Assembly: GCA_016292095.1 (NCBI GenBank)
Contig: JAEFAB010000071.1
Span: forward strand, 1 to 35,297
Direction: 5' to 3'
Source: Eubacterium sp.
GTDB lineage: Bacteria > Bacillota > Clostridia > Lachnospirales > Lachnospiraceae
DNA: 35,297 nt
Positions 2,748-32,365 of this stretch are shown here, in pieces; positions within the stretch are counted from its first letter, which is position 1, and every line of letters starts with the position of its first letter. Made by a program: the position numbers and the translations under genes. The notes below the pieces were generated by a model. It was not told the origin of the DNA and made no database searches. It saw nothing but the letters and a program-made list of their open reading frames with translations.

Positions 2748-3521
2748 ATGAAAAAGTTTAAAAAATTGTTCTGGGGGACAGTTTCCGTTGTTTCAATTCT
2801 GATTTTTATTTGTTGCTCGGCATATTTATTTAAAAACTATCGCCATGACAGCGACAATGACGGAGCTAATTTTATCGAAACGACAGTTGCCGAATCCGCC
2901 GGAGAATCTCAGGTTGCAGACAACCACGGAATTAATTGGAAGAAGTTACACAAAACCAACTCCGATATTTATGCCTGGATTTATGTGCCGGGAACAAAAG
3001 TGGATTATCCGGTTGTCCAACCGTCAAACGGAGAAGATGACGACTTCTATTTAAATCGAAATATCAAGAAGAAAAGTTCTTCCGCCGGTGCCATCTATTC
3101 GGAAATGCAGAATGCCAAAGATTTTTCCGACCCGGTTACGGTCTTATATGGTCACAACATGGCTGATGGAAGTATGATGGCTACCCTTCATGATTTTAGA
3201 AATGACATATTTTTCAAAAAACATAAATATATGTACATTTACACACCGAAGAAAAAGCTAACTTATGAAATCTATTCCGCATATGTTTATGACAACAGAC
3301 ATATTTTGAATTCTTTTGATTTTTCAAAGAAATCCGTGCTGATGGATTATCTGAAATTCACAAAGAATCCTACATCACTGGTGGCAAATACTCGTTCTTT
3401 AAAAAAGGATGATATTCGCCTCACAAAAGACAGTAAAATTTTAACCTTAAGCACCTGTACCTACAATTATGAAGGTGACACCCGTTATTTAGTTCAGGGG
3501 GTATTGATTAAAGATGAATAA
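2748..3521 (+). CDS. Class B sortase, first cassette
   Basis: Sortases cleave a C-terminal sorting motif in secreted proteins and join the new carboxyl end to a cell-wall amine. This 257-residue protein has an N-terminal membrane anchor (about 9-29) and an extracytoplasmic catalytic domain. It carries the class B hallmarks YAWIYVPGTKVDYPVVQ, FYLNRN, and YGHNM with His136. LSTCTYN contains the nucleophile Cys237 and DTRYLVQG contains Arg246, which complete the active site. A TGAGGAATATG start region supports the ATG at 2748. Its 3' end overlaps the LCP gene by eight bases, so the two are probably translationally coupled. A paralogue lies in the second cassette. The nearest candidate substrate is the SPKTG protein at 4758. 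Clostridioides difficile SrtB, also class B, is known to accept SPKTG-type motifs. Confidence 0.93.
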   Translation: MKKFKKLFWGTVSVVSILIFICCSAYLFKNYRHDSDNDGANFIETTVAESAGESQVADNHGINWKKLHKTNSDIYAWIYVPGTKVDYPVVQPSNGEDDDFYLNRNIKKKSSSAGAIYSEMQNAKDFSDPVTVLYGHNMADGSMMATLHDFRNDIFFKKHKYMYIYTPKKKLTYEIYSAYVYDNRHILNSFDFSKKSVLMDYLKFTKNPTSLVANTRSLKKDDIRLTKDSKILTLSTCTYNYEGDTRYLVQGVLIKDE

Positions 3522-4668
3522 ACATCCGGATATAATTATTGACAAAGAAGATTCCGAAGGCTTTGATGTCGACTGGAATACTGTTGAAAAAGAATATCGA
3601 AGAAGCAAGCGTCACAGACACCACCACCATTCGTCATCATTTTCCGAACAGCGGAAAATGTCCAGGAAGAAAAAAATCATCCTTGGGATAATCATTTTCT
3701 TCCTTCTGTTGATTGTCACATCTATTTCTGCATTTTTTATTATGCGACATTTCGGTAAGAAAGGACTTACCACGAATACGTTGGATATGAACATTCCAAA
3801 ATTCGTTGAAGATTACAAGGATGGCGGTAAGACGCTAGTTTACAAAGGACATACATACCAATTCAATGAAGATTTGTCCACGATTCTTTTCATGGGTATT
3901 GATAATACCGAATTGAAACAAAACGCTGTAGCAGGAACTGCCGGCCAGGCCGATGCTTTGTACCTGCTTCTTTATAACACAAAGACCGGTAAAATCCGAA
4001 CGTTGGCAATCAACCGTGATACCATGGTAGACATTAACCTTTACAACGAAGCCGGCAACTACGAAGGAACTGTCAATCAGCAACTTTGTCTTGCCTTTGC
4101 CTATGGTGACGGAAAGAAGACCAGTGCGGAAAATCAGGTTCGTTCCGTTCAACGACTCCTTTACAACATTCCGGTCAATGCATATTATGCCATTGATTTG
4201 TCAGCAATTAAAATTTTGAATGATGATATCGGCGGAGTTTCCTTAACTCCTAATTATACCTTTGGACAGTTTACCAAAGGGCAAAAAGTAACATTAAAGG
4301 GAGATATGGCAGAAGCCTACGTTCGTACCAGAGATACTTCTCTGCTGGACGACAACTTGCGAAGAATGGAATGCCAAAAACAGTACATTACAGAATTTGC
4401 CAATCGGATTGTTCCTGCAATCAAGGAAGATTTCCAGGTTCCGCTGACGCTTTACAATGATGCGTCCGATTACACCGTATCTGACTTTACTGTTCCCGAA
4501 ATGGTATATTTGTCTTCCTCATTGGCTACAACCTATTCCGGTTTGGATATTGTCGGAACAAAGGGAACCTATCAGTTAAAGAAAGATGACGGAACTGCAC
4601 AGTACCTTTTAGACCAGAAAGCTTTCTTTGAAACACTGTTAGATTTATTCTACGAAAGAATTGACTAA
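3514..4668 (+). CDS. LytR-CpsA-Psr (LCP) family protein, first cassette
   Basis: LCP enzymes move glycan chains from undecaprenyl-phosphate carriers to peptidoglycan. In Actinomyces an LCP enzyme transfers glycan to a sortase-substrate protein. This 384-residue protein has a cytoplasmic N-terminus with a His-rich basic stretch (RHRHHHH, 33-39), a membrane segment (about 55-77) and an LCP domain from about 122. Visible motifs are TILFMGID, ADALYLLLYN (Asp147), INRDTM (Arg168, Asp169) and YVRTRD (Arg271, Arg273). In the C-terminal helix the usual R-x-x-R-Q reads RMECQ, so Cys287 replaces the second Arg. It overlaps the sortase gene by eight bases. The His-rich cytoplasmic tail is shared with the second copy. 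Substrate is unknown. Confidence 0.9.
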   Translation: MNKHPDIIIDKEDSEGFDVDWNTVEKEYRRSKRHRHHHHSSSFSEQRKMSRKKKIILGIIIFFLLLIVTSISAFFIMRHFGKKGLTTNTLDMNIPKFVEDYKDGGKTLVYKGHTYQFNEDLSTILFMGIDNTELKQNAVAGTAGQADALYLLLYNTKTGKIRTLAINRDTMVDINLYNEAGNYEGTVNQQLCLAFAYGDGKKTSAENQVRSVQRLLYNIPVNAYYAIDLSAIKILNDDIGGVSLTPNYTFGQFTKGQKVTLKGDMAEAYVRTRDTSLLDDNLRRMECQKQYITEFANRIVPAIKEDFQVPLTLYNDASDYTVSDFTVPEMVYLSSSLATTYSGLDIVGTKGTYQLKKDDGTAQYLLDQKAFFETLLDLFYERID

Positions 4669-4688
4669 ATTTTGATAAAAGAAAGAGT

Positions 4689-4717
4689 TTGTTTTTTTCA
4701 TTATTATGCTGTATAAT
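4689..4717 (+). promoter_or_regulatory. Promoter of the first SPKTG protein gene
   Basis: TTGTTT (4689-4694), a 17-base spacer and a perfect TATAAT (4712-4717) lie 40 bases before the ATG. The small protein can thus be expressed independently of, and probably more strongly than, the two enzymes upstream. Confidence 0.72.
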
Positions 4718-4757
4718 AAAGAAAGGTATCTATTTCTTTGAGCGGAGGTATGAATTT

Positions 4758-5063
4758 ATGAAGAAAAAAATATTTGCTATGTTATTAACAGCTCTTATGA
4801 TCTTTGCTTTTTCTACTATGTGTTATGCAGCATCGAGTCCTGAAGCTACTGTTCTTCCTGAAAACGGTCAGGAAACAAAAGGTTCAGGTTCAGGTGATAA
4901 AAATGATGTCGGTGGCGACAATAATCAGGGTGGAAATAAAGGAAATGCAAACACTTCCGCTGTTTCACCAAAGACAGGATATGAACTGGGTGGTTCATTG
5001 GTAGTAATGATTACAGCTTTAGGTGTTGCAGTTGTTTCTATGAAGAAATATTCAGAATGTTAA
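4758..5063 (+). CDS. Small secreted SPKTG-anchored protein, first cassette
   Basis: This 101-residue protein has a signal peptide (1-24, predicted cleavage CYA|ASSP) and a short, low-complexity mature region rich in Gly, Asn, Ser and Asp. It ends in a sorting signal: SPKTG (70-74), a hydrophobic stretch (about 78-94) and a short tail with two Lys. Sortase cleavage between Thr73 and Gly74 would leave only about 49 residues, mostly linker, so it may serve as a carrier or spacer rather than a folded enzyme. The start at 4758 follows AGCGGAGG; an upstream in-frame ATG at 4689 lies inside the promoter and is rejected. It is flanked by its own promoter and a strong hairpin terminator. No homologue is recognised; function is inferred from context only. 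Confidence 0.85.
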   Translation: MKKKIFAMLLTALMIFAFSTMCYAASSPEATVLPENGQETKGSGSGDKNDVGGDNNQGGNKGNANTSAVSPKTGYELGGSLVVMITALGVAVVSMKKYSEC

Positions 5064-5070
5064 TAATGTT

Positions 5071-5117
5071 ATAACAAAAATCCTGTACCTATAATGTGGG
5101 TGCAGGATTTTTGTTAT
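5071..5117. terminator. Perfect 15-bp hairpin between the two cassettes
   Basis: Arms 5071-5085 and 5103-5117 are perfectly complementary with a 17-base loop, and the arms carry A5 and T5 runs, so it can terminate in either direction. It separates the first SPKTG gene from the second sortase. The loop contains TATAAT (5090-5095) without a convincing -35. Confidence 0.85.
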
Positions 5118-5144
5118 GAAATGAAATAACTTTTGGAGGGATCT

Positions 5145-5900
5145 ATGAAAAAAAATATCATTTCCAGAATTATATTTGTTTTCGCTTGTTTATCCATATT
5201 GCTTTGTACAATATGGTTGGTTCGCATATACGGGCCGGAAAAAAATCCATATTCAGATTACAAAACCGAAACCACCGCCACTGCAGTGGATGGCGACGAT
5301 AGCCACTTGGAAAACCCTATTGATTTCAAAGCATTAAAGAAAAAGAATTCCGATGTTTATGCCTGGATTACCATTCCCGGCACGGATGTAGATTACCCGG
5401 TTGTTCAGGCGTCTCCTGACAAAGATGATAATTTCTATCTGGACCATAACATCGAGCAGAAGTATGAATTTGCCGGAATGATTTACAGCCAGAGACTAAA
5501 TACAAAATCATTTGACGATCCTGTTACAGTTTTTTACGGACACAATATGTTAAACGGCAGTATGTTTGCAACACTTCATCGATTTGAAGATCCAAAGTTT
5601 TTCAAAAAGCACGACACCATTACCGTTTATACACCGGGACATCAATTGACTTATACCATTGTATCGGCATATATTTATGATAACAGACACATTTTAAATA
5701 CCTTTGATTTTTCAAAGAAAAAAGATTTGAAGGAATACATCTCTTCATTGACCAAACCGAAATCTATGGTTTCCAATGTAAGAGAAGGTATTAAGGTTAC
5801 TACAAAAGACCATATTTTAACATTGAGTACATGCACCTCTGTAGATACACAACGATATCTTGTTCAAGGAGTATTAACTGATGACACAATTACCAAATAA
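5145..5900 (+). CDS. Class B sortase, second cassette
   Basis: This is a 251-residue paralogue of the sortase at 2748 with the same order of motifs. It has a membrane anchor (about 7-27), VYAWITIPGTDVDYPVVQ, FYLDHN, YGHNM with His133, LSTC with Cys230 and TQRYLVQG with Arg237, so the catalytic triad is complete. The strongest stretches shared with the first copy are the substrate-binding blocks and the segment YDNRHILN-FDFSKK. The region between the anchor and the domain (about 30-60) differs. The ATG at 5145 is chosen because GGAGGG lies four bases upstream; an in-frame TTG at 5133 falls at the RBS and is rejected. Its end overlaps the LCP gene by 20 bases. No clear promoter is seen between the inter-cassette terminator and the start. 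Confidence 0.93.
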   Translation: MKKNIISRIIFVFACLSILLCTIWLVRIYGPEKNPYSDYKTETTATAVDGDDSHLENPIDFKALKKKNSDVYAWITIPGTDVDYPVVQASPDKDDNFYLDHNIEQKYEFAGMIYSQRLNTKSFDDPVTVFYGHNMLNGSMFATLHRFEDPKFFKKHDTITVYTPGHQLTYTIVSAYIYDNRHILNTFDFSKKKDLKEYISSLTKPKSMVSNVREGIKVTTKDHILTLSTCTSVDTQRYLVQGVLTDDTITK

Positions 5901-7095
5901 TCCGGAAACTCCAAAGGATGAAACCCCTTCCACTCCATCGGAATCCATTACTTTAAAGAGGGTTCATTCACATCATCACCGGGATTACACAAAAAAAGTA
6001 TCCCGTGTTTCTGCTTCCGGAGAAATTAAATATAAAAAAGTAAAACGAAAACATCATCGAAAGAAGATGAGTAAAAAGAAAAAAATACTGTTGGGAATTC
6101 CCTTGTTTCTACTTTCTATTATTCTGATTACTGTAGGAGTTCTCTTCACCATGAATTACCTGGGTAAGAGAGAATTCTTGAAACGAAACAAAACCGCAAG
6201 TATTCGAACTTATAAGGATACCTATTCTTACAATGACGGCCGAGTTGTTTACTATAACGGGAAAAAATATGTGTACAACGAGAATATGGCTTCCATTGTA
6301 TTTCTCGGTATTGACCGTTCGGAACTGGGAACTGAAGAAATCGGAAATGCCGGACAAGCAGACGCCATTTACATCTTCAGCTACGATACAGAAACAGGAA
6401 AATGTTACGTTATCCCTGTTTCCAGAGAAACAATGACCGACGTTCGTCTTTATTCTGTTTCCGGTCAGGCACTTGGAATTGAGAAACTGCAAATATGCTT
6501 GGCTTACGGATATGGAAACGGGAAAGATACCAGTTGTGAAAACACCTTAAAATCGTTATCCAATATTTTCTACAACATTCCGTTCAACACCTATATGGCC
6601 CTGAACTGGGATGGTATCGGTCCACTGAATGATTTATCCGGCGGAGTTACGCTAACTTCTTTGGAAGATGTCAACACCGAATACTCCAATATCCCGAAGG
6701 GCAAGGAAGTAACATTAATGGGACAAGACGCCTGGTCTTATGTTAAGTACCGAGATATTTCCAAGTTGAAATCCAACAACGATCGACTTGAACGGCAAAA
6801 GCAATATTTGAATGCTTATATGAATAAAATGATTTCCAAAATCCGTTCGGATTTTTCAGTCATTTCTGATTTGTACAATACTGCCGGCGATTACACTTAT
6901 ACAAACTTCAGTTACAATCAGGTTGTATATACTGCTTCAACTGTTTTGCCGGATGTTTATTCCAGTAAAGATGTTGAGTTTGTTCCAATCAAGGGCGACG
7001 TCAAAATGGGAGAGCAACATGCAGAGTTTTATCCTGATGAAAAAGCTTTGTACGAAGTTATTCTGAAAGTGTATTATAACGAAGCAAACGACTAA
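5881..7095 (+). CDS. LytR-CpsA-Psr (LCP) family protein, second cassette
   Basis: This is a 404-residue paralogue of the LCP protein at 3514. It has a longer cytoplasmic N-terminus rich in Pro, Thr, Ser, Lys and His (HSHHHR near 29-34 and KRKHHRKK near 55-62), a membrane segment (about 68-92) and an LCP domain from about 137. Motifs include SIVFLGID, ADAIYIFSYD (Asp161), SRETM (Arg182, with Glu183 where RDT usually has Asp), and YVKYRD (Lys289 where an Arg is usual, then Arg291). The final helix has R-L-E-R-Q-K-Q (302-308), which is canonical. AAGGAG precedes the ATG at 5881. The gene starts inside the sortase gene, so coupled translation is likely. Its family role is glycan transfer outside the membrane; the exact donor and acceptor are unknown. 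Confidence 0.9.
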   Translation: MTQLPNNPETPKDETPSTPSESITLKRVHSHHHRDYTKKVSRVSASGEIKYKKVKRKHHRKKMSKKKKILLGIPLFLLSIILITVGVLFTMNYLGKREFLKRNKTASIRTYKDTYSYNDGRVVYYNGKKYVYNENMASIVFLGIDRSELGTEEIGNAGQADAIYIFSYDTETGKCYVIPVSRETMTDVRLYSVSGQALGIEKLQICLAYGYGNGKDTSCENTLKSLSNIFYNIPFNTYMALNWDGIGPLNDLSGGVTLTSLEDVNTEYSNIPKGKEVTLMGQDAWSYVKYRDISKLKSNNDRLERQKQYLNAYMNKMISKIRSDFSVISDLYNTAGDYTYTNFSYNQVVYTASTVLPDVYSSKDVEFVPIKGDVKMGEQHAEFYPDEKALYEVILKVYYNEAND

Positions 7096-7098
7096 TTG

Positions 7099-7127
7099 TT
7101 TACTTTTATTATAAAAAATAGTATGAT
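7099..7127 (+). promoter_or_regulatory. Promoter of the second SPKTG protein gene
   Basis: TTTACT (7099-7104), a 17-base spacer and TATGAT (7122-7127) lie 39 bases before the ATG. The placement matches that of the promoter in the first cassette. Confidence 0.55.
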
Positions 7128-7166
7128 TATTCTAGATTATTATGTATAGGGATTAGGAGGTTAACT

Positions 7167-7751
7167 ATGAAAAAATTAATGGCAGTGCTTCTCGTAGCAC
7201 TTATGACACTGTCCTCTATTAGCGTTATGGCTGCCAACAGTCCGAGTGCTGTGGATTTATACAAGATTACCGTTGCCGGCCAGAGCATTGGCAAAGACGG
7301 CGGTTCCGCAGATGTTAAGGGCGGTTCCATTTCCGTTAGTAAAGGTATGGTAGAAGATGGAAAGCAGGTTACTTTAACAGCTTCTGCCTTTGATGGAAAG
7401 AAATTTGGAAAGTGGAATATCAGTGGTGATTTTACAATTGTTGATGGAAGTTTAACTTCTGATACAATCACAATCATTCCAAACAGTGATATCGATGTTG
7501 ATGCAACGTTCGATGATGCTGAAGATGAAAGCGTTCCGGATAATAACGATGACGACGACAGCGATGATGGCGATGATGGTGACGATGACGATGAAGAAGA
7601 AACAACAGGAACTCAGCCGGTTACTCAGGCTCCTGACAACTCAAACATTTCACCAAAGACAGGTGTTTCTACTAACACTGCTGCTGTAGTAGCAATTCTC
7701 TTACTTTCATGTAGTGGAATTGCAGCGAGCAGAAAAATGAAAAAAGATTAA
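7167..7751 (+). CDS. Secreted SPKTG-anchored protein with acidic linker, second cassette
   Basis: The 194-residue protein has a signal peptide (1 to about 22, cleavage near VMA|ANSP). A small folded domain (about 24-116) ends in a segment (FGKWNISGDFTIVDGS to about DVDATF) that resembles an InlB B-repeat-like beta domain. It is followed by a very acidic linker (about 117-145, mostly Asp and Glu), a Thr/Gln/Pro stretch, the sorting motif SPKTG (162-166), a hydrophobic helix and the tail SRKMKKD. TTAGGAGG precedes the ATG. The signal-mature junction (A-N-S-P-S-A) and sorting signal resemble those of the first cassette's small protein (A-S-S-P-E-A), so the two are likely functional counterparts. 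The acidic block could bind cations or act as a spacer; this is inference. Confidence 0.87.
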   Translation: MKKLMAVLLVALMTLSSISVMAANSPSAVDLYKITVAGQSIGKDGGSADVKGGSISVSKGMVEDGKQVTLTASAFDGKKFGKWNISGDFTIVDGSLTSDTITIIPNSDIDVDATFDDAEDESVPDNNDDDDSDDGDDGDDDDEEETTGTQPVTQAPDNSNISPKTGVSTNTAAVVAILLLSCSGIAASRKMKKD

Positions 7752-7775
7752 TCAATAGATTAACCATATACGACA

Positions 7776-7818
7776 AAAGAACCTTCTTATGTTGAGTTTT
7801 CAACATTGAAGGTTCTTT
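7776..7818. terminator. Bidirectional terminator between convergent genes
   Basis: Arms 7776-7786 and 7808-7818 (AAAGAACCTTC and its complement) enclose a second pairing of ATGTTGA with TCAACAT. It serves the plus-strand SPKTG gene and the minus-strand acyl ligase gene. Confidence 0.85.
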
Positions 7819-7835
7819 CATTATGTTAAACATTT

Positions 7836-9248: not shown

Positions 9249-9278
9249 CGATTACTCTCCTCAATCATTTGCATTCTC

Positions 9279-9512
9279 TTACATTTCAATGTCATATTTC
9301 TTTAAAATATTTTTTCCTTCTTCAAAGGAATTAATATTAATAATATCATCTGTATCTAACTCGATTCCATACGCATCTTCTATTTCACCGATTAAAATCA
9401 TATGTCCTACAGAATCCCAATCTCCTTCTTTATAAGTAGCAGATGTTACTTCTTCTTCTGATATGTTCAGTGCACGAACAAATGCCTGAACGTATTTCTC
9501 GTAATTCGACAT
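9279..9512 (-). CDS. Acyl carrier protein
   Basis: This 77-residue acidic four-helix carrier has the phosphopantetheine site in DWDSVGHM, with Ser34 as the attachment residue, followed by the usual IEDAYGIEL helix. A discrete ACP beside a dedicated AMP ligase points to a carrier for a specialised pathway rather than the fatty-acid-synthesis AcpP, which normally reads DSLD and sits with fab genes. Two SD-like sequences (AGGAGG and AAGGAG) precede the ATG. It lies 18 bases after the acetyltransferase gene. Confidence 0.9.
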   Translation of the reverse strand: MSNYEKYVQAFVRALNISEEEVTSATYKEGDWDSVGHMILIGEIEDAYGIELDTDDIININSFEEGKNILKKYDIEM

Positions 9513-9530
9513 CTCCTTATATCCTCCTAA

Positions 9531-23110: not shown

Positions 23111-24844
23111 TTATTCTTTCTCTTCTGCAGAATTATCTTCCTGCTTCTTTTCTTCCATCAAAGCTTTCTTTTCTTCCTCTGTGGTTGTCAAAGCAATCTT
23201 CTTGGAAACTTTCTTTTCCTGTACGCTGAATTCTTCTTCAGATACTTCTCCGTATTCACCATAGCCGTAGCCATATTCTCCGTAAGTTCCGTAGCCATAG
23301 CCGTAACCGTATCCATAACCGTAACCATAGCCGTAACCATAACCTTTTCCGTAGCCTTTACCATAGCCATAACGCTTTCCGGAACCGTATTTTTTGCCAT
23401 AGCCATACTTCTTGCCGTATCCATATCTTCCATAGCCATAATGCTTTTCATAACCATAGCCATAAAGAGAATTCATACGACGAATAGAGCCATTCAGAAC
23501 GCATCCGATAATCGGTGTTCTCGTATAAGAGAATTCCTGAACTGTATCCATAATTTTGTTCACACGGATTTCATCTTCTTTAACAACGTAAACCACACCA
23601 TCGGAATATTTTGCCAAAACAGCTGCATCGGAAGTTTCTCCACAATGCGGTGCATCAAAAATCACGTAATCCACAACATCCTGAACTTCCTGAACAAAGC
23701 GTTCCATTTCTTCAGAGTTCAGACATTGTACAGGATTTGTACTTTTCAGATTCGGTGCACAAAGAAGTACACGGCTTCCCGGAATATTAACGATGGCATC
23801 GCTGTTCTTAACTTTCTTATCCAGAAACTGTTCCAGCGAGAAGTCCACGGTTTCCACACCGGTCATTTTTCTCAGACTCGGATTTCTCAAATTGCCGTCC
23901 ACCAGCATTACTCTACACTGTGCTTTTGAAAGAGAATAGGCAAGGTTCATTGCCAGTGTACTTTTTCCTTCTCCTTCTTTCGTACTGGTGATCAAAATTA
24001 CTTTACAGTTTTGTTTCTTCAGTACACGTTCAATTCTGGATGAAACGCTTCGCATTGCTTCCAGATATCGGAACCCGACATTTTTATCAATTACCGAGCA
24101 GAACTTCTTTCCTACCAGTTTTCGATCCATGAAAACGATTGGCAAAGCACCAAAACACGGAACACTCAAATATTTTTCTACATCCTCTGTGGATTTAATG
24201 GTTCGAACAAAGAACGCATAAAATCCGCAAGGAATCATTCCCATTACCAACGCAATCAGCATAAACCGGAAAATATCCGCCCATGGGCTGTATGGATTAT
24301 TCGGTTCTTTTGCAACAATCGGAGCTTCCAAAATATCAATTTTTGTATCTCCCAAAACAAACTCCGCTACGCTGCTATAATTGTTTACAACGGATTGAAT
24401 AACATCATAATTCAGCTGCGCATCCTCACCTGTAACGGCGATACTTAAAATGTTTGTTCCTTCTACCGATGAAATCTCGATGTGACTTGGCATATACGTT
24501 AAGCCGATGTCTTTTTCAATAATTTCATAAAAGACTTCATTGTTAATAACATAGTCAAAGTTTACACTTAACTCTTCTGCCAGCTGACTGTTGTTTGTAT
24601 AAGAACGGTCTTCCTCTCCATTATAGCTTGCCGCCGTAATGGAAAAAGTTGCTTTCGATTCATAAATCGGTACATAGTCTTTCTTATATCGGAAAAATCC
24701 CAAAATTCCCATTGCAACCATTAACAATACAATAGCCCACCAGAATTTTCTGATTACTTTTAAAAACGCAAAGACAATCTCCGTAGCGTTTCTTTCTTCC
24801 TGCTTTTCCTTCGATGATGAATAGTTCGCCTTATTCGTTGTCAT
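23111..24844 (-). CDS. Wzz/BY-kinase-type protein with altered Walker motifs and Tyr-Gly tail
   Basis: This 577-residue protein is built like a fused chain-length regulator and bacterial tyrosine kinase. It has a Wzz domain with membrane segments at about 34-51 and 191-213, then a P-loop domain. Walker A is normal (TSTKEGEGKST, 286-296). Walker A' reads MLVDGNLR (313-320), where the family has D-x-D-x-R, so the second Asp is Asn. Walker B reads FDAPH (396-400) instead of DTPP. Residues 461-531 hold about 27 tyrosines in YG repeats, followed by a highly charged Glu/Lys tail. It may be a phosphate acceptor and structural partner of the kinase encoded just upstream. The start at 24844 overlaps that gene by 14 bases and has a GGTGGTGG RBS; an in-frame ATG at 24877 has none. 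Confidence 0.85.
   Translation of the reverse strand: MTTNKANYSSSKEKQEERNATEIVFAFLKVIRKFWWAIVLLMVAMGILGFFRYKKDYVPIYESKATFSITAASYNGEEDRSYTNNSQLAEELSVNFDYVINNEVFYEIIEKDIGLTYMPSHIEISSVEGTNILSIAVTGEDAQLNYDVIQSVVNNYSSVAEFVLGDTKIDILEAPIVAKEPNNPYSPWADIFRFMLIALVMGMIPCGFYAFFVRTIKSTEDVEKYLSVPCFGALPIVFMDRKLVGKKFCSVIDKNVGFRYLEAMRSVSSRIERVLKKQNCKVILITSTKEGEGKSTLAMNLAYSLSKAQCRVMLVDGNLRNPSLRKMTGVETVDFSLEQFLDKKVKNSDAIVNIPGSRVLLCAPNLKSTNPVQCLNSEEMERFVQEVQDVVDYVIFDAPHCGETSDAAVLAKYSDGVVYVVKEDEIRVNKIMDTVQEFSYTRTPIIGCVLNGSIRRMNSLYGYGYEKHYGYGRYGYGKKYGYGKKYGSGKRYGYGKGYGKGYGYGYGYGYGYGYGYGYGTYGEYGYGYGEYGEVSEEEFSVQEKKVSKKIALTTTEEEKKALMEEKKQEDNSAEEKE
23252..23464 (-). repeat. Hexanucleotide-type repeat encoding a Tyr-Gly tail
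   Basis: The coding strand is a run of alternating TAC/TAT and GGN codons with occasional Lys, Arg, Glu, Ser and Thr codons. The purest part encodes nine consecutive YG units. The basic unit is six bases, so slippage or recombination would change tyrosine number without shifting frame. Confidence 0.85.
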
Positions 24845-26255
24845 AAATTTCCACCACCTTTCCCTCTGAATTGCCATATGCAGAAGTATGAGGCTTCAGG
24901 TTTGTCCGAAGATCTTTATAATCATTCAAAATACAACCAAGCATCTTTGCATTGGAATTATTCATAATTGTAATACACTTCACAACATCTCTCTGATAAG
25001 AGAAATCCTGTCTTACAACAAGCATACAGAAATCAACTCGATCCAGCAGTGCTTCCGCATCAGATACCAGTGCCATTGGCGGGGTATCAATAATTACATA
25101 GTCTGCCATACGACTGCATTTTCGAATCAGGTCTCTCATAGCACCGGACTTCATGTATTCATTTGTATTGGAATATCCTTTAGAAGAAAGGATTAAATCC
25201 AAATTGGTCTTTTTATCATGGTACAATACTTCATCCAAACCACACTGTCCCTGCAGAAGTTTTGCAGAATCCACAACGGCACCCTTTGGCACGTCCATCA
25301 TTTTGTAGATCGCCGGCTTTCTAAAGTCCGCATCCAGCACAACAACACGCTTTCCTTCCTTGGCAAAGGAAAGTGCCACGTTAATCGCCACCGTAGATTT
25401 TCCTTCGTTTTCACAAACACTGGAAATCATATATACGTTTCTACTAGGATGTCTTTGGTTTTCGTATTCCAATTTGACACGAATGTTGTCCACTGATTCA
25501 ATAAACTTGTTTGAAATAATCGGGCTGGTAATCAGCAGTGCCTTTACCATCTTGTTGATTTTCGCCTTCAAGGTACGGTTCTTATTTTCATGATAAATGG
25601 TACCTAAAAGAGTTGTATCCATTTCATTTTCAATAATACTTTCTCTCTTAACGGTTCTTCTTAAAAAGCTGATTGCAAGAATAATCAAGGAAACGATCAG
25701 CCCTGCCCAAAGGCCTGCTTTTAAAGATTCCCTTTGTGGCGCAAGCGTATTATTCGGTTGCGTTGCCACTTCTGCCCCGCGCAATTCATCAAAAACCGCA
25801 TCCGAGCTTAAATACGGAGAAAGTTCGTCATAGTTCCCCATGATAGCACCGATTGCCTGAAAAGCTACAATCGGGTCATTAGCCACAGCCTCAACTTTCA
25901 TTAAGTTGGTTCCTTCAATCAGAGAAACTCTTGTCTTACCTCCGATAATGGAAATATGCAAGTCCGAATGAAGCTTTGACTGCATAATATCTGCTGTCAT
26001 CAAATTCTGGAAAACCGTAATTACGCTTTCCGCAAATCTTCTGTTTGTGTACACATACCCTGTACTTTGCTTCGGAGTCACAACATAAATCGCCGTGCTG
26101 GAATACTCCGGAACGTAATTTTTCTTCAGATACGTGTAACGTCCCATAATAGCAATACATACTACAATGAAAACAAACCACAGACGACGTACTAAATCCA
26201 TCAGTAATGAATATATATTCAAATTTTCCAATGTAAAAATTTTGTTATCTGTCAT
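24831..26255 (-). CDS. Wzz/BY-kinase protein (capsule chain-length regulator and tyrosine kinase), canonical copy
   Basis: The 474-residue protein has two membrane segments (about 25-38 and 181-198) around an extracytoplasmic Wzz domain. The kinase domain has Walker A SVCENEGKST (279-288), Walker A' VVVLDADFRKP (304-314) and Walker B VIIDTPP (387-393), all canonical. Such proteins autophosphorylate on C-terminal tyrosines and control polymer length and export. Here the C-terminus has only two tyrosines after residue 450 (Tyr460 and Tyr471), an unusually poor cluster. The next gene product has about 27. It follows the Ig-like membrane protein by two bases and overlaps the second kinase-like gene. 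No Wzb/CpsB phosphatase gene is in the window. Confidence 0.9.
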   Translation of the reverse strand: MTDNKIFTLENLNIYSLLMDLVRRLWFVFIVVCIAIMGRYTYLKKNYVPEYSSTAIYVVTPKQSTGYVYTNRRFAESVITVFQNLMTADIMQSKLHSDLHISIIGGKTRVSLIEGTNLMKVEAVANDPIVAFQAIGAIMGNYDELSPYLSSDAVFDELRGAEVATQPNNTLAPQRESLKAGLWAGLIVSLIILAISFLRRTVKRESIIENEMDTTLLGTIYHENKNRTLKAKINKMVKALLITSPIISNKFIESVDNIRVKLEYENQRHPSRNVYMISSVCENEGKSTVAINVALSFAKEGKRVVVLDADFRKPAIYKMMDVPKGAVVDSAKLLQGQCGLDEVLYHDKKTNLDLILSSKGYSNTNEYMKSGAMRDLIRKCSRMADYVIIDTPPMALVSDAEALLDRVDFCMLVVRQDFSYQRDVVKCITIMNNSNAKMLGCILNDYKDLRTNLKPHTSAYGNSEGKVVEIYDNE

Positions 26256-26257
26256 CC

Positions 26258-27100
26258 CTATTCCTCCACTATTACAGTGAGATAAGTAGTATTTTCATTA
26301 CTCTTTCCACCGTTAATAGTATATTCTACAGTATAAAAACCTGCCTTCTTCATATTCACATTCGTATTGGTGACTTCCACAACACCCTGACTCATATCTT
26401 TTCCATCCGGATCCTTTACAGAATCAATGTAGTCCTTTGCATTGAAGAGATTACCAACCTTCAAATAAACGACGTTTCTCTTCAAATTAATTACCGGACT
26501 CAGATTGTTTCTCTGCTTAATAACCACAAGACCTTTGAACTTTGCAGTATCTCCCAAGCTGTTTGTAACCTGTGCTGTTACTGTATATTTTCCTGCTACG
26601 CTAGTGGCTGTCGTATTGGACAAGATTTTAATTTTTCCCGTCACATCTCCATCCACACCGTCTTTTGCCCCTAATACATCCACTACCGTGGTATCAGATC
26701 CCACATCAAAACAGAGGGGCTCTGACAAAATGAATCTCGGTGATTCATAATCTTTATATTTAATCTTCCGGGAAACTTTGGACACATGATGTTCCGAATC
26801 TTCCACTGCATAAGTAATATTGCAGATGTGTTCTTTTTTATCCACAAACTTTGAGATAGACTCAACAATGATTTTATCTGTCAAATCTCCGTCTTCCCGG
26901 TCTGTTGCAACAATTCCCTTACATAGCGCTTTTCTATCATCCTCTACGGAGCATTCCAAAAGCTCCTCCTCCACAGTAAAAACAGGTCCGTTATAGTTAA
27001 TACTTTTTCTGCTCTGATAATAATTCCACGTGAATATTCCGGAAATAATAAGAAAAACAACCACAATGATTATTCTGCTATATACTACAATAAATCTCAT
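26258..27100 (-). CDS. Membrane-anchored protein with three Ig-like (DUF5011-like) repeats
   Basis: The 280-residue protein has an uncleaved N-terminal anchor (about 9-25) and an extracytoplasmic part made of three beta-rich repeats of about 78 residues (35-113, 119-195, 200-279). Repeats 1 and 2 share the motif D-x-x-D-G-D-[LV]-T-x-K-I (ATDREDGDLTDKI and AKDGVDGDVTGKI), which resembles DUF5011/HYR-type Ig-like domains. Repeat 3 has a related PDGKDMSQGV. All repeats end in a GxYTV or NITY-type strand. It is encoded two bases before the canonical BY-kinase gene, which suggests that it works at the cell surface with the polysaccharide export machinery. No enzymatic motif is seen. This association is inferred from position only. 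Confidence 0.75.
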   Translation of the reverse strand: MRFIVVYSRIIIVVVFLIISGIFTWNYYQSRKSINYNGPVFTVEEELLECSVEDDRKALCKGIVATDREDGDLTDKIIVESISKFVDKKEHICNITYAVEDSEHHVSKVSRKIKYKDYESPRFILSEPLCFDVGSDTTVVDVLGAKDGVDGDVTGKIKILSNTTATSVAGKYTVTAQVTNSLGDTAKFKGLVVIKQRNNLSPVINLKRNVVYLKVGNLFNAKDYIDSVKDPDGKDMSQGVVEVTNTNVNMKKAGFYTVEYTINGGKSNENTTYLTVIVEE

Positions 27101-27126
27101 TCTCCGTTATCCTTTCACCTTTAAAA

Positions 27127-27678
27127 TCATTCTTTGATTTCACTTAATTTGGACCAGTTCTGATCCTTTTCGCTTAAAATAATTTCCATATCTTCCGGTA
27201 TTGGCCAGTCAATCCCGATATCCGGGTCATTCCACATAATTCCGGCCTCATCTCCCGGGTGATAAAAATCTGTCACTTTGTAGCAAAATTCCGCTTCTTC
27301 TGAAAGAACCAGAAATCCGTGAGCAAACCCTTCCGGAATATAGAACTGCTTCATATTTTCTGCTGACAGTTCCACGCCAAACCATTTTCCGTAAGTCTTT
27401 GACCCCTTTCTCAAATCTACAGCAACATCAAATACATTTCCGCGGATTACACGAACCAGCTTTCCCTGTGGGAAGTTCAACTGTCTGTGAAGTCCTCGAA
27501 GCACGCCTCTTTTGCTCATAGACTGGTTATCCTGAACAAAGACCATACCAAGCCCTGCTTCTTCCATATCTCTCTGATTATAGGTTTCCACAAAGTAGCC
27601 TCTTTCATCCGGAAAGACCTTCGGTTCAATTACCGCCAATCCTTCAATTTCACATCTCGTAACTTTTATCTGTCCCAT
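27127..27678 (-). CDS. rfbC: dTDP-4-dehydrorhamnose 3,5-epimerase
   Basis: RmlC converts dTDP-4-keto-6-deoxyglucose to its L-lyxo isomer, step three of dTDP-L-rhamnose synthesis. The 183-residue cupin has DERGYFVETYN, the catalytic His region in LRGLHRQ, GKLVRVIRGNVFDVAVDLR, and YIPEGFAHGFLVLSEEAEFCYK with the conserved Tyr. Length is typical. It lies 20 bases after rfbB. Confidence 0.95.
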   Translation of the reverse strand: MGQIKVTRCEIEGLAVIEPKVFPDERGYFVETYNQRDMEEAGLGMVFVQDNQSMSKRGVLRGLHRQLNFPQGKLVRVIRGNVFDVAVDLRKGSKTYGKWFGVELSAENMKQFYIPEGFAHGFLVLSEEAEFCYKVTDFYHPGDEAGIMWNDPDIGIDWPIPEDMEIILSEKDQNWSKLSEIKE

Positions 27679-27698
27679 GACTATTATCTCCCAATTTT

Positions 27699-28727
27699 CT
27701 ATGCACGTTCTTTATCAACATACATTTTTTCAAAATAATTCTGATATTCACCGCTGATAATGTTTTCCCACCAACTCTTGTGATCCAAATACCACTGAAT
27801 GGTTTTCTTAATCCCGTCTTCAAATTTTGTTTCCGGCAACCATCCCAATTCCTGATGAATTTTTGTCGGATCAATGGCATATCTCATGTCATGTCCCGGT
27901 CTGTCCGTTACATAAGTAATCAGACTCTCCGGTTTTCCAAGCTGTTCCAAAATCGTCTTTACAACTTCCAGATTTGTCTTCTCGTTGTGTCCGCCAATAT
28001 TGTAAACTTCCCCAACGCGACCTTTTCTCATTACCAGGTCAATGGCAATACAATGATCCTCTACATAAAGCCAGTCTCTGACATTTTCCCCTTTTCCGTA
28101 AACCGGAAGAGTTTCATCTGCCAACGCTCTGGAAATCATTAATGGAATTAATTTTTCCGGGAAATGATAAGGACCGTAATTATTACTGCATCTTGTAATT
28201 GTCACCGGCAATCCGTATGTTCTGTAATATGCCAACACCAGTAAATCTGCCCCGGCCTTGCTGGAAGAGTACGGACTGGATGTATGGATTGGTGTTTCCT
28301 CCGTAAAAAACAGTTCCGGCTGATCCAACGGTAAGTCTCCGTATACTTCATCTGTAGAAACCTGATGATATCTTGTAATTCCATATTTTCTGCAGGCATC
28401 CATCAGCACCTGTGTTCCGATAATATTCGTCTGCAGGAAAATTCCCGGATCCTCAATGGAGCGGTCTACATGACTTTCCGCTGCAAAGTTCACCACAATA
28501 TCAGGCTTTTCTTCTTCAAATAATTTTTCAACAAATTCCTTGTCCGCAATATCTCCTTTTACAAAACGGAACTGCGGATTTTTCATCGCTTCATCCAACG
28601 TTGCAAGATTTCCCGCATACGTTAATTTATCCAAACAAATAATCCGGTCTTCCGGATGTTTTTCCAATTCATAATATACAAAATTGCTGCCAATAAAGCC
28701 GGCACCGCCTGTTACAATAATGTTCAT
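27699..28727 (-). CDS. rfbB: dTDP-glucose 4,6-dehydratase
   Basis: RmlB makes dTDP-4-keto-6-deoxyglucose from dTDP-glucose. The 342-residue SDR protein has the NAD-binding GGAGFIGSNF (7-16), the VSTDEVYGDL region, the catalytic YSSSKAGAD, and the SNNYGPYHFPEKLIPLMI signature. It is preceded by its own promoter, because a terminator separates it from rfbD. AGGAGG lies upstream of the ATG. Confidence 0.96.
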   Translation of the reverse strand: MNIIVTGGAGFIGSNFVYYELEKHPEDRIICLDKLTYAGNLATLDEAMKNPQFRFVKGDIADKEFVEKLFEEEKPDIVVNFAAESHVDRSIEDPGIFLQTNIIGTQVLMDACRKYGITRYHQVSTDEVYGDLPLDQPELFFTEETPIHTSSPYSSSKAGADLLVLAYYRTYGLPVTITRCSNNYGPYHFPEKLIPLMISRALADETLPVYGKGENVRDWLYVEDHCIAIDLVMRKGRVGEVYNIGGHNEKTNLEVVKTILEQLGKPESLITYVTDRPGHDMRYAIDPTKIHQELGWLPETKFEDGIKKTIQWYLDHKSWWENIISGEYQNYFEKMYVDKERA

Positions 28728-28776
28728 ATTTTCCTCCTAGCACATAGTCTTCCATTTTTAGACTATAATCCTTTTT

Positions 28777-28805
28777 ATTGTACCATAAAAAGGCGGCTAT
28801 GCAAA
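28777..28805 (-). promoter_or_regulatory. Possible promoter of rfbB-rfbC and downstream genes
   Basis: TTTGCA (28805-28800), a 17-base spacer and TACAAT (28782-28777) on the minus strand. The -35 lies inside the terminator hairpin downstream of rfbD. A second -10-like TATAGT occurs further downstream (near 28762). Confidence 0.45.
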
Positions 28806-28817
28806 TCGCATAACCGC
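28786..28817 (-). terminator. Terminator between rfbD and rfbB
   Basis: Arms 28808-28817 and 28793-28802 (GCGGTTATGC type, one G-U pair) with a five-base loop are followed on the minus strand by five T. It splits the rhamnose genes into two transcription units or attenuates the downstream one. Confidence 0.75.
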
Positions 28818-28834
28818 TATTTCTTCATAGGTTT

Positions 28835-29707
28835 TTAGACTTCAATCTCTTTCAAATACCTGTGCAGGGCATCCTGCCACGTCGGAAGAGGTTTAAATCC
28901 CTTTTCCCGTAATTTACTTTTATCCATTCTGCTGTTTTCCGGACGTTTTGCCTTTGCCGGATACATCTCGCTTCCTACCGGCGAAACCTTTACCTTCCCA
29001 TAAACCGCATCAAGTTCCGATGCCTGTTTCATAATTTCCACGGTAAAGTCATACCAGCTGATATATCCGCCCTCATTGGTAGCATGGTAAATCCCGTATT
29101 GTTCCTTTTCCACCATATCCACAAGCAGGCGCGCTAAATCATACGTATAGGTAGGCGTTCCCACCTGATCTGCAACCACCGTCAAGGCATCATGGGATTT
29201 CCCGAGATTTAACATAGTCTTCACGAAATTTTTTCCGTTCTTCCCAAATACCCAGGCGATACGGACAATGTAATATTTTTCCAAATATTTTTGAACTGCC
29301 AGTTCCCCCCGGTATTTGGATTCTCCATAAACATTCAGAGGTGCTCTCTCATCCTCCGGCTTCCAAGGTTCTTCACCCTGTCCGTCAAATACATAATCTG
29401 TGCTGATATAAATCATCTTTGCATCCAGTTCTTTACAAACCTTGGCAATATTCTCCGTTCCCTGAACATTGACTTTCATAACCTTCGGAATATTCTCTTC
29501 CTCTTCCGCAGCATCAACAGCCGTCCAGGCCGCACAATGAATTACTGCTTCCGGTCGTTCCTGATGCAAAACATTATGGACGGATTTTTCATCTGTAATA
29601 TCCATCTCTTCAATGTCCACACCAACAGCCTCATATCCTCGTTTTTTCAATTCATTAACAACATCAAACCCAAGCTGTCCTTTGACTCCTGTCACTAAAA
29701 CCTTCAT
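28835..29707 (-). CDS. rfbD: dTDP-4-dehydrorhamnose reductase
   Basis: RmlD performs the final NADPH-dependent reduction to dTDP-L-rhamnose. The 290-residue protein has VTGVKGQLGFDVV (5-17), CAAWTAVDAAEE, STDYVFDGQGEEPW, and the catalytic Tyr and Lys in NVYGESKYRGE. It closes 17 bases before a terminator and lies 14 bases after rfbA. Confidence 0.95.
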   Translation of the reverse strand: MKVLVTGVKGQLGFDVVNELKKRGYEAVGVDIEEMDITDEKSVHNVLHQERPEAVIHCAAWTAVDAAEEEENIPKVMKVNVQGTENIAKVCKELDAKMIYISTDYVFDGQGEEPWKPEDERAPLNVYGESKYRGELAVQKYLEKYYIVRIAWVFGKNGKNFVKTMLNLGKSHDALTVVADQVGTPTYTYDLARLLVDMVEKEQYGIYHATNEGGYISWYDFTVEIMKQASELDAVYGKVKVSPVGSEMYPAKAKRPENSRMDKSKLREKGFKPLPTWQDALHRYLKEIEV

Positions 29708-29721
29708 TGTTTTCTCCCAAT

Positions 29722-30609
29722 CTATCGCAATGGATCAATAAATTTTCCGTCTACAACATCCTTCAAATATTGTCCATACTCGTTTTTCTTCATTAATTCA
29801 TATGCTTCCAGAATTTCTTCCTTGCTAATCCAACCATTCAGATATGCAATTTCTTCCGGACATGCAATTTTTCTATGCTGATGGTCCTCAATATTTTTCA
29901 CAAAATTTGTGGCTTCCACCAGGCTGGCATGTGTTCCTGTATCAAGCCAGGTAAATCCCTGTCCCAACACTTCTACATCCAGCTCTCCGTTTGCCAGATA
30001 AATCGCATTCAAATCTGTGATTTCCAATTCTCCTCTGGCAGATGGCTTCAGATTTTTCGCATACTCTACTACGCGGTTATCATAAAAATACAAACCGGTA
30101 ACGCAATAATTGCTTTTTGGTTTTTCCGGCTTTTCTTCAATGGAAATCGCCTTGCCTTCCGCATCAAATTCCACAATTCCGAAACGTTCCGGGTCGTCTA
30201 CATAGTAACCGAACACTTTCGCACCTTTTGTAATTTTTGCAGCCTCCTGCAAACGTTTCTTCAGACCATGTCCCTCAAAAATATTGTCTCCGAGAACCAT
30301 TGCCACGCTATCATGACCAATAAAGTCAGCTCCGATAATAAATGCCTGAGCCAATCCGTCCGGACTCGGCTGAACAGCATATTCCAGATGAATTCCAAAC
30401 TGGCTTCCGTCCTTCAACAGTTCCTGAAATCTCGGTGTGTCCTCCGGTGTGGAGATAATCAAAATCTCCTGAATTCCTGCATTCATCAACACGGATAACG
30501 GATAGTAAATCATTGGTTTGTCGTAAATCGGCAACAACTGCTTTGATGTCACCCTGGTCAACGGATACAAACGCGTTCCTGACCCTCCTGCTAAAATTAT
30601 ACCTTTCAT
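29722..30609 (-). CDS. rfbA: Glucose-1-phosphate thymidylyltransferase
   Basis: RmlA joins dTTP and glucose 1-phosphate to form dTDP-glucose, the first committed step. The 295-residue protein has [22 protein letters not shown] (from residue 6), [24 protein letters not shown], and [13 protein letters not shown]. Length and motifs are typical. It lies 14 bases after the APH-type gene. Confidence 0.96.
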
Positions 30610-30623
30610 ACGTACCTCATTTT

Positions 30624-31745
30624 CTATTTAATATTTTCCGTTAAATAATCCAATAGTTGGAGCCATAACGTAAATTTTTCTTTCAACACTTCTGTGGCAT
30701 TTTCTGTTCTCATCATATAGAAACCAATGATGAAAAGAACATAACAAGCATACGTGAAATCCGGATTTGCCACATACTTTTCCAATCGGTGGTAATAACT
30801 GCGGTAGTCGTGAATCACGCCACCGATTTCTGCTTTTTTCCCCAGCATAGATGCCTGTGTAATATAATGAAAAATATCCATATATTCCGGCATGGAAAAA
30901 TGCGCATATTCAAAATCAAAGGCTTTCAATTCACCATCTTTATAGTACACATTCCACGGTGTAAAATCTCCGTGAAAAAAAGAATAAATATACGGTTCTT
31001 CTTTCAACCGCTTTTCCACCCAGGAAATACCCTGTTTCAACACTTCCTGCTGCGCATCGGAAAATACTGATAATTGCCCTTTTACATATTCTACATAATA
31101 TGCAAACTCCGATTCTTCATAATTCAGTTTTTCCGCCGTTTTCTGATTAATATCCCATAAGAAATCCAACTGTTTATTGGACAACTCTAATTTAACCCCT
31201 TGACCAAACCGCTTCTCTGTTGACTGGGCAAAAAAATGAATCCCATTGATTTTTTCGTCCAACAACATGCGCGGGACATTTGGTATTTCTTTCTCCTCCA
31301 AATAACGGAGCACTCTAATCTCATGAGAGAAATTTTTTGATACCTTTTCATTTTCCGTCAGTTTCAAAAAACACTCAATCTGATTTCCACTGTAAACCTG
31401 AAGGGTTACCTTTTCGTTTTGCCAGGAAGTCGTATCTCCCTGATAAGCAGCCACTTCAAATTCATTTCTGTCCAATCCTGTAATCTTCTCAATTTGATCC
31501 AAAATCTCATCTTTCAAGCGGATTTTCTTTTGCTTCAAATTGATTTTCTCACCAATTTTGTTTCCACTTCCAATGCGGACTGCAACCTTCAACATTTTTC
31601 CTTTTAAAGTTGATGGCTGATACAACGCCAACGCGTGTCCCAATGAACCACTTGGCAAAAACCATGTTTTGTCTGCGTGTTCAAAGATTACATACTTTTC
31701 TGCTGACTGATCTCCTATAAAATAATTGTTAACACTCTTTTCCAC
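30624..31745 (-). CDS. APH-fold phosphotransferase of unknown substrate
   Basis: The 373-residue protein uses a GTG start at 31745 with GAGGA upstream. An N-terminal region (about 1-110) has no recognised domain. The C-terminal two thirds has the aminoglycoside-phosphotransferase/choline-kinase fold: [13 protein letters not shown] (near residue 259) is the Brenner catalytic motif with Asp and Asn, and [12 protein letters not shown] carries the metal-binding Asp. Kinases of this kind in polysaccharide loci can phosphorylate sugars, choline or lipid-linked intermediates. Its place just before rfbA suggests a role in building or decorating the rhamnose-containing polymer, but the substrate cannot be read from the sequence. 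Antibiotic resistance is an unlikely role. Confidence 0.75.
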
Positions 31746-31755
31746 AGTGCATTCC

Positions 31756-32313
31756 TCAACGCTTTCTTTCCATTATTTTTTTCATACCCCAGTATCCCAA
31801 ACCACTTCCTATCGTGTTCATAAGAACATCTTCTGTTTGTGCTACACCACAACATAAAAAATACTGTATCCCCTCAATACAAAAACTAATCAAAAAACCA
31901 AGTATGATACATAAGGAAACTGTTTTCATTTTCTCAATGCTCATTGCACAAAAAATACCCAGTGGTACAAAAGCCACTGCGTTTGCAACCGCATAAAGAA
32001 TAATTAAGTTGATTCCTCCCGGCATATTGAAAGGAATAAAATCTATCGGTTCTTTTACACTTCCTATCGGTCTGGATACAATAACAAGTTCCACCAAAAG
32101 TGCTGAATAAAAAGCCAAGCCTATCCACCCAATCAGTTTCTTTCTTTCGGGCTTTTTTTGATTTTTTAATCGACACACAAAAAGAACAATTAAAAGTGTA
32201 ACCACTCCGCAAAATACAGCCAAAGGCAGTCCATTCCATATATTTATTAAAATACTTTTAGTATTCAGCAATAATTGTCTTACATTTGCTCGATAAACTT
32301 CACTTCGAGTCAT
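31756..32313 (-). CDS. VanZ-like membrane protein
   Basis: The 185-residue protein has about four to five membrane segments, with the VanZ-family pattern of a conserved PIDFIPFN motif after the second or third helix and ISFCIEGIQYFLCCGVAQTEDVLMNTIGSGLGY near the end (quoted here only to mark position 142-175). VanZ relatives often occur in polysaccharide loci and their biochemical role is poorly defined. The RBS (GGAAGG) is some distance from the ATG. Confidence 0.82.
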   Translation of the reverse strand: MTRSEVYRANVRQLLLNTKSILINIWNGLPLAVFCGVVTLLIVLFVCRLKNQKKPERKKLIGWIGLAFYSALLVELVIVSRPIGSVKEPIDFIPFNMPGGINLIILYAVANAVAFVPLGIFCAMSIEKMKTVSLCIILGFLISFCIEGIQYFLCCGVAQTEDVLMNTIGSGLGYWGMKKIMERKR

Positions 32314-32365
32314 TATACTGCGTTTCCTTCCAACTTCACTTTATGCGCCCCGTTTTTAAACGTCT

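Follow-up and report, generated by a model that had tools for sequence, protein, structure and literature searches.

The question raised by this stretch of Eubacterium sp. DNA (the window: one complete contig, C18, of 35,297 nucleotides, from a genome of 2.3 Mb that is 91% complete) is why a class B sortase (SrtB), a LytR-CpsA-Psr enzyme (LCP) and a secreted SPKTG protein (SP) are encoded side by side, twice in tandem. The gene neighbourhoods, the motifs of the secreted proteins and the retained catalytic residues lead us to lean towards reading each unit as a polysaccharide-anchoring device, in which a polymer would be joined covalently to the SP by the LCP.

The two units in the window

The six genes were found at the places given by the original prediction, in the order SrtB, LCP, SP, as two tandem units at 2748-7751, and the overlaps it reported were confirmed at 8 bases for SrtB1/LCP1 and 20 bases for SrtB2/LCP2. 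The features of both units are as follows.

2748..3521, + strand: SrtB1, class B sortase of 257 aa (TIGR03064 profile, catalytic residues, solved relatives)
3514..4668, + strand: LCP1, LytR-CpsA-Psr enzyme of 384 aa with a membrane segment at the N-terminus (PF03816, AlphaFold model, active-site residues)
4758..5063, + strand: SP1, short secreted protein of 101 aa (sequence features, genus counterparts)
4836-4841 and 4965-4979, + strand: Ser27-Pro28 and SPKTG motifs of SP1
5068..5120, + strand: strong hairpin, probably terminating the first unit (-32.4 kcal/mol; z -10.6 relative to 200 shuffled sequences)
5145..5900, + strand: SrtB2, class B sortase of 251 aa with an ATG start (TIGR03064 profile, catalytic residues)
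5881..7095, + strand: LCP2, 404 aa (PF03816, active-site residues)
7167..7751, + strand: SP2, 194 aa, with an InlB B-repeat-like domain and an acidic linker (PF18998, sequence features)
7239-7244 and 7650-7664, + strand: Ser25-Pro26 and SPKTG motifs of SP2
7774..7824, + strand: hairpin 3' of the second unit, likely terminator (-21.8 kcal/mol, z -7.1)

Since hairpins lie behind both SP1 and SP2, the natural unit here is probably SrtB-LCP-SP, present twice; a simple terminator scan of the window listed neither hairpin.

Conservation of the unit

A genome collection was scanned by LCP alignment, with search patterns derived from this LCP lineage and no sortase condition, and the best 80 of 240 stretches gave 79 loci, a sample that favours close relatives because only those 80 were kept. 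The record titles of these loci include Lachnospiraceae, Ruminococcus, Anaerostipes, Blautia and unclassified Clostridia; Anaerostipes butyraticus and Ruminococcus bromii are among the carriers of the unit. In each of the 78 loci with 700 or more bases of upstream sequence, SrtB closely precedes the LCP gene in the same orientation (73 found by gene calling, within 400 bases, and 5 by six-frame search), and the SrtB/LCP overlap was 17 or 20 bases in 53 of the 73 gene-called loci. By a strict count, 45 of the 54 loci with both flanks complete encode a small secreted protein with a sorting signal, either ahead of SrtB or behind LCP; a looser count of 49/54 was discarded, the matches in L128, L134, L146 and L147 being due to chance or to the sequence of SrtB itself. 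The coupled SrtB-LCP-SP unit is widespread in gut Clostridia, and the gene order, for which the original prediction had proposed a search in other Lachnospiraceae genomes, is conserved far past the genus, so that the refuting condition named there, an order kept in no relative, does not apply. A literature search of mainly openly available papers returned no description of the SrtB-LCP-SPxTG unit as such.

Within the genus, 23 genomes held 97 LCP matches, of which 23 had a class B sortase on the same strand no more than 1 kb upstream. These sortase-linked LCPs came from 20 genomes and were all of the LCP1 or LCP2 type; the 62 best-scoring LCP matches of the genus included not one of them. The sortase-LCP pairing is not chance. 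Among the 18 genus regions L043-L060, 16 have the SP gene directly behind LCP1, as does L073; in the remaining two of the 18 the contig stops in or at LCP1, so that 17 relatives reach the SP position. The second unit was whole in the window, G007 and G014. Both LCP1 and LCP2 were absent from G019 (one contig, 99% complete), where a 61-aa sortase remnant (L062, 12201-12386) lies at the cassette site.

The secreted proteins and the Ser-Pro motif

The matching sorting signals and signal-mature junctions ascribed to SP1 and SP2 were borne out, each protein having a signal peptide, an Ala-x-Ser-Pro junction, and SPKTG followed by a hydrophobic stretch and a charged tail. The NCBIfam anchor models matched both only below cut-off; signal peptides were called by eye, script and simple rules, and cleavage sites are predicted. 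Mature SP1 up to the presumed sortase cut has 49 residues, of which 10 are Ser or Thr. The description of the mature first protein as almost only linker holds for SP1 and does not extend to SP2, which has a divergent domain of the InlB B-repeat type (PF18998, 37.5 bits against a cut-off of 23.6). Neighbouring SPs ranged from 74 to 261 aa (one odd 52-residue row excluded) and varied in content: some matched the InlB B-repeat model, 4 of 6 scanned with Pfam matched no family, and many were linker only. The segment before the sortase cut comprised 20-50 mature residues in 19 of 54 SPs, too few for a typical domain, and in these short SPs the median Ser+Thr content was 33%, compared with 15% in control secreted proteins (L103 was excluded from this length and composition count).

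A Ser-Pro just behind the signal peptide was common to 76 of 90 cassette-adjacent secreted proteins with a sorting motif, and was seen in 4/27 adjacent secreted proteins without one and in 5/88 non-adjacent secreted controls. Adjacent proteins overall carried it in 80 of 117 cases (Fisher P 1.2e-21 against the 88 controls, uncorrected for the kinship of the loci); the control set is imperfect, with a sorting motif in 1/88 and interrelated loci. A second count placed Ser-Pro within residues 17-42 in 54/66, the Ser being the predicted mature residue 3 in 31/54. Regions L043-L060, which come from the same genomes as L076-L093, were excluded from the Ser-Pro, LCP-residue, SP-length and dead-sortase counts. 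Seven substrates from five genomes (loci L196, L198, L205, L207 and L209 among them) were found to stop no more than 2 residues past SPKTG or APKTG; neither a membrane segment nor a charged tail was seen by eye downstream of these motifs in any frame.

The sortases and their likely substrates

Both sortases scored above the NCBIfam TIGR03064 class B cut-off of 153.75 bits (SrtB1 176.9 bits, SrtB2 166.2 bits), and the catalytic residues claimed for them are in place: His136, Cys237 and Arg246 in SrtB1 and His133, Cys230 and Arg237 in SrtB2. The closest solved structures of SrtB1 were class B sortases (5b23, E 7e-29; 4ux7, E 2e-22). The whole genome held seven sortase matches. The pattern [S/T/C/R/W]P[K/Q/E]TG, the one motif type searched, matched 18 times in this 91% complete genome, against 12 times for a reversed control pattern, and SP1 and SP2 were the sole typical C-terminal sorting signals; L239 was doubtful as such, its SPKTG being followed by a hydrophobic stretch and a long charged tail. 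This makes SrtB1 and SrtB2 look specific for the adjoining SPs, no other typical C-terminal signal having matched the pattern. A genome rich in SPKTG proteins and served by general-purpose sortases was considered and is unsupported, only SP1 and SP2 being typical among the 18 matches. Elsewhere in the genome (G000, contig C16, 61311-72564, L063), three more class B-type sortases lie amid large secreted proteins and appear pilus-like by eye.

In a few cases it was also observed that the C-terminal signal accompanies a working sortase. This rests on the pair L186 and L189, on L218, and on L202, L223 and L206. In G296, one capsule cluster (L186) pairs an active SrtB with a substrate that bears a sorting signal, whereas in the paralogous cluster (L189; SrtB at 7323-8087) the catalytic His is replaced by Pro and the Cys by His, and the substrate lacks a sorting signal. 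Similarly, the SrtB of L218 (6073-6816) has lost its catalytic His and Cys and its secreted neighbour has no sorting signal. An LCP of this lineage without SrtB in the region examined was found in L202 and L223 (both G254) and L206 (G225), where the neighbouring secreted protein keeps Ser-Pro and lacks the sorting signal; both genomes encode class B sortases at other places. The sorting signal stood beside 92 of 101 active and 0 of 2 dead sortases, with P about 0.01 in a hand-corrected, post hoc comparison of two dead cases; the automated call made beforehand gave 88/97 active against 4/6 'dead' (P 0.12), and 5 active ones were reassigned by eye. L202, L223 and L206 retain the N-terminal motif in the absence of a sortase, but L186, L189 and L218 lack it, so that it is not universal.

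The LCP enzymes

The identification of both proteins as LCPs stood, since they passed the Pfam PF03816 cut-off of 24.6 bits (LCP1 68.9, LCP2 55.8) and have the catalytic arginines; neither reached the NCBIfam LCP domain cut-off of 62.3 bits (47.6 and 36.4 bits, respectively). LCP1, alone of the two, was modelled with AlphaFold (mean predicted local distance difference test score 84.4), and in Foldseek the model retrieved TagV (E 6e-17), Cps2A (E 6e-16) and also TagT structures, with Actinomyces oris LcpA at rank 31 (E 4e-11, 14% identity). The LCP1 residues D147, R168, R273, R284 and Q288 were retained in 108-110 of 110 SrtB-linked LCPs, and the R168, R273 and R284 columns hold Arg in both window LCPs. 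R267, R374 and Q378 of Cps2A are described as holding the pyrophosphate, Asp371 numbering also being taken from the cited part of PMC7831098, and the A. oris arginines R149 and R266 are described as required for GspA glycosylation in the corresponding part of PMC6381275. By our own residue mapping, the counterparts of all five are kept in 108-110/110 SrtB-linked LCPs.

Departures from the canonical residues were also seen. At the first position of the R-x-R motif, LCP1 has Arg and LCP2 has Lys, and the counterpart of Cps2A R362 is Arg in 89/110 SrtB-linked LCPs and Lys in LCP2. The Cps2A D371 column holds Asn, Ser or Ala in 108/110 (Asn in both window LCPs) and Asp in the three remaining LCPs of the genome. 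The change from Asp to Asn was considered as a marker of protein-acceptor LCPs and rejected, Asn being present also in 6 of 6 sortase-free third paralogues. The whole genome held five LCP matches; the three others scored higher with the LCP model, and no sortase match was found on their contigs. In other genomes, the LCP genes of L199, L186 and L189 encode 526-557 aa proteins with a VanZ-type membrane domain seemingly fused N-terminal to the LCP domain, as judged by eye.

Capsule context

A link to capsule, absent from the original prediction, was added by this analysis. The window contains the following cluster.

23111..33304, - strand: capsule/exopolysaccharide-type cluster on the same contig, with no LCP within

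A pair of BY-kinase-like ATPases is encoded here (one matching Wzz below cut-off, one having a long tail rich in Tyr and Gly), along with an Ig-like membrane protein. The cluster also holds rmlA-D for dTDP-rhamnose and genes for a glycosyltransferase, an APH-family kinase and what by eye is a VanZ-like protein, and it is a candidate source of polymer for this organism. In the genus, the cluster was found in 16 of 23 genomes, and 16 of these 16 have the cassette; in 6 of the 23 genomes, cluster and cassette lie on one contig, at a distance of about 14-26 kb. The cassette was still found in 5 of 7 cluster-free genomes (in one case in pieces), and G019 and G008 have neither. The co-occurrence in the genus is consistent with a link and not discriminating.

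More distant genomes were searched with L061, the sortase-linked LCP of G032, which gave 50 matches at E ≤1e-45 in 40 of 299 Lachnospiraceae genomes; 42 of the matches lie within the 40 regions examined, the others being the two of the window, that of G032 and five more. SrtB was no more than 2 genes away in 31 of the 40 regions (32 with a six-frame result for L208), capsule markers were no more than 7 genes away in 25, SrtB and markers occurred together in 21, and a candidate substrate was present in 33. A capsule context is frequent among these regions, and units of this kind often lie within capsule gene clusters.

Origin of the two units

The original prediction had taken the two cassettes for a duplication followed by divergence. 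Trees were built from 50 LCPs and 48 SrtBs, selected rows instead of all loci. G342, a genome of another genus, holds both cassette types at separate loci, and in the LCP tree its L200 joined LCP1 and its L222 joined LCP2 (both starred). A recent local duplication is rejected on this grouping of each LCP with the matching cassette of another genus, and the trees place the separation of the cassettes ahead of the diversification of the genus. The SrtB tree dates the split less deeply, because SrtB1 and SrtB2 share one 16-row clade. The two Ruminococcus bromii units sit in different subclades of the Ruminococcus group.

Comparison with known systems

One closely similar published case is Mediterraneibacter gnavus ATCC 29149, in which, according to the cited part of PMC13121745, a srtB4 mutant lost its capsule halo and complementation restored the capsule. 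Disruption of the LCP gene RGna_12040 in the same cluster impaired the capsule, and that of RGna_00055, an LCP gene of another cluster, did not (PMC13121745). In the same part, the authors considered the sortase unlikely to make the capsule directly and left its role unexplained, with no mechanism put forward and no carrier protein examined. RGna_12035 is presumably srtB4, judging from the locus-tag range. Normal cell-bound capsule in M. gnavus depends on both a class B sortase and an LCP encoded in the one cluster (PMC13121745). This was the only paper linking sortase, LCP and capsule in Lachnospiraceae that was found in a search of mainly openly available literature. The window units share the gene pair and differ in lying outside the capsule cluster, where M. 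gnavus has SrtB and LCP inside it; the likeness was drawn from the published description and not from sequence.

The SrtA of A. oris is a class A sortase encoded elsewhere, and GspA is a larger protein. In the window the class B sortase gene overlaps the LCP gene, and substrates of such units can be as small as 20-50 residues. The A. oris system is alike in that an LCP, LcpA, glycosylates a sortase-anchored protein, GspA, and in that the lcp and substrate genes adjoin; it differs in that anchoring is by the housekeeping SrtA and in that LcpA is a distant LCP with a special disulfide (cited part of PMC6381275). A 2021 review describes LcpA as the one LCP so far to use a protein as acceptor (PMC7831098, in the part cited). 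An lcp gene beside a sortase-substrate gene, as for GspA, is present in both window cassettes.

Relatives of SrtB1 include the SrtB chains of PDB 4ux7, 5gyj and 4y-type entries, some of which we take to be Clostridioides difficile SrtB, an enzyme for which no LCP partner is known to us. The window shares with C. difficile the combination of sortase B and SPKTG-type substrates (PMC5569036, PMC4371152 and PMC4155245, in the parts cited); C. difficile is described as having a single sortase (PMC4155245), unlike the genome of the window. The LCP fold and the active-site residues are shared by the window LCPs with TagTUV and Cps2A. These enzymes attach teichoic acid or capsule to peptidoglycan, unlike the transfer proposed here, and the D371 position is changed in the SrtB-linked LCPs. 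We know of no sortase partner of TagTUV or Cps2A.

Proposed mechanism and alternatives

In the proposed mechanism, the LCP would take a lipid-linked glycopolymer, most likely capsule and here possibly that of the 23-33 kb cluster, and transfer it to the SP, probably at the Ser of the Ser-Pro near the signal-peptide cut. The class B sortase would recognise SPKTG at the other end of the SP and tie the protein to peptidoglycan. The SP would thus be a two-ended carrier, with an N-terminal motif for the LCP and a C-terminal motif for the sortase. The idea of a glycan carrier fits because there are few other candidate sortase substrates, the SPs are short and carrier-like, and the catalytic residues of the LCPs are intact. 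The original suggestion that the LCP may attach glycan to the SP or to nearby peptidoglycan while the sortase anchors the SP is partly supported by the conserved order, the carrier-like SPs, the LCP residues and the M. gnavus mutants, the acceptor being more probably the SP than peptidoglycan.

Several observations weigh against a polymer-bearing SP, among them the distance of the window cassettes from the capsule cluster and the Lachnospiraceae regions without a nearby capsule marker (given below). In addition, 9 of the 54 loci with full flanks have no SP, and G004 and G009 keep LCP2 without SrtB2 or SP2. The Ser+Thr content of SP1 (10/49) is lower than that of the other short SPs (median 33%). 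No Ser-Pro was seen in the examined stretch of 14 of the 90 linked proteins with a sorting motif, some through mispredicted cleavage, but in four related loci the motif is of SQETT type; the substrates of L186, L189 and L218 also lack it. The genus has sortase-free capsule-type LCPs (the third paralogue) that likewise carry Asn at the changed Asp, and L010, another LCP of the genome, adjoins a priming-glycosyltransferase-like gene (by eye) and could serve the capsule.

One alternative is canonical LCP chemistry, in which the polymer would be transferred to N-acetylmuramic acid (MurNAc) of peptidoglycan while an unglycosylated, SrtB-anchored SP would arrange, space out or hold the polymer, or else the LCP, at the wall. 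Peptidoglycan is the usual LCP acceptor, since A. oris LcpA was called unique (PMC7831098, in the part cited), the LCP1 model is nearer to TagV and Cps2A than to LcpA, and the folded domain matched in SP2 could bind something. Many SPs nevertheless seem too short for a binding domain, as in the 19 of 54 with 20-50 mature residues, and the loss of srtB4 alone impairs the M. gnavus capsule (cited part of PMC13121745), which would here require that the LCP cannot act, or the polymer cannot be held, without the SP; this alternative is regarded as rather unlikely. That the SPs are ordinary small surface proteins anchored by sortase, next to an LCP for wall maintenance or another glycopolymer and kept adjacent by co-expression only, would agree with the position of the window cassettes, about 15 kb away from the capsule cluster and outside it, and with the 15 of 40 Lachnospiraceae regions that have no nearby capsule marker. 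It is made improbable by the presence of SrtB beside this LCP lineage in 78/78 loci against 0/62 for the top-scoring LCPs of the genus, and by the N-terminal Ser-Pro common to otherwise unlike proteins. Class B sortases that polymerise pilins exist, and a pilus-like or multimeric system, in which the sortase joins SPs to one another, was also weighed; 4 of the 19 short SPs have no Lys ahead of the sorting motif, no pilin domain was found among eight SPs scanned with Pfam, and the LCP would be left unexplained, all of which makes it very improbable.

Neighbouring genes

Between SP2 and an amylase gene, the stretch 7836-10175 (- strand) encodes an AMP-binding ligase, a PglD-like acyltransferase and, judged by eye, a small protein resembling acyl carriers. 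In the relatives L043, L044, L045 and L048 the amylase directly adjoins the cassette, which gives this stretch the look of an insertion. An Ig-like repeat protein at 34191-35297 (- strand) is interrupted by the contig end.

Implications

The preferred reading, with the SP as carrier, could join two findings: LCP protein glycosylation, known from one organism, and the unexplained need of a capsule for a sortase (PMC7831098 and PMC13121745, in the parts cited). Gut Clostridia may, as we tentatively propose, have a general and previously unnamed route for fixing polymer to the wall, made up of a dedicated LCP, a tiny Ser-Pro peptide and a dedicated SrtB, by which the capsule would be linked through a peptide and not via a MurNAc phosphate. 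Such a route, if true, would explain the sortase requirement in M. gnavus. It would also supply LCP biochemistry with a candidate acceptor peptide that is short and can be defined, offer a testable mechanism with very small substrates, and would revise the view of capsule attachment in Lachnospiraceae and their relatives.

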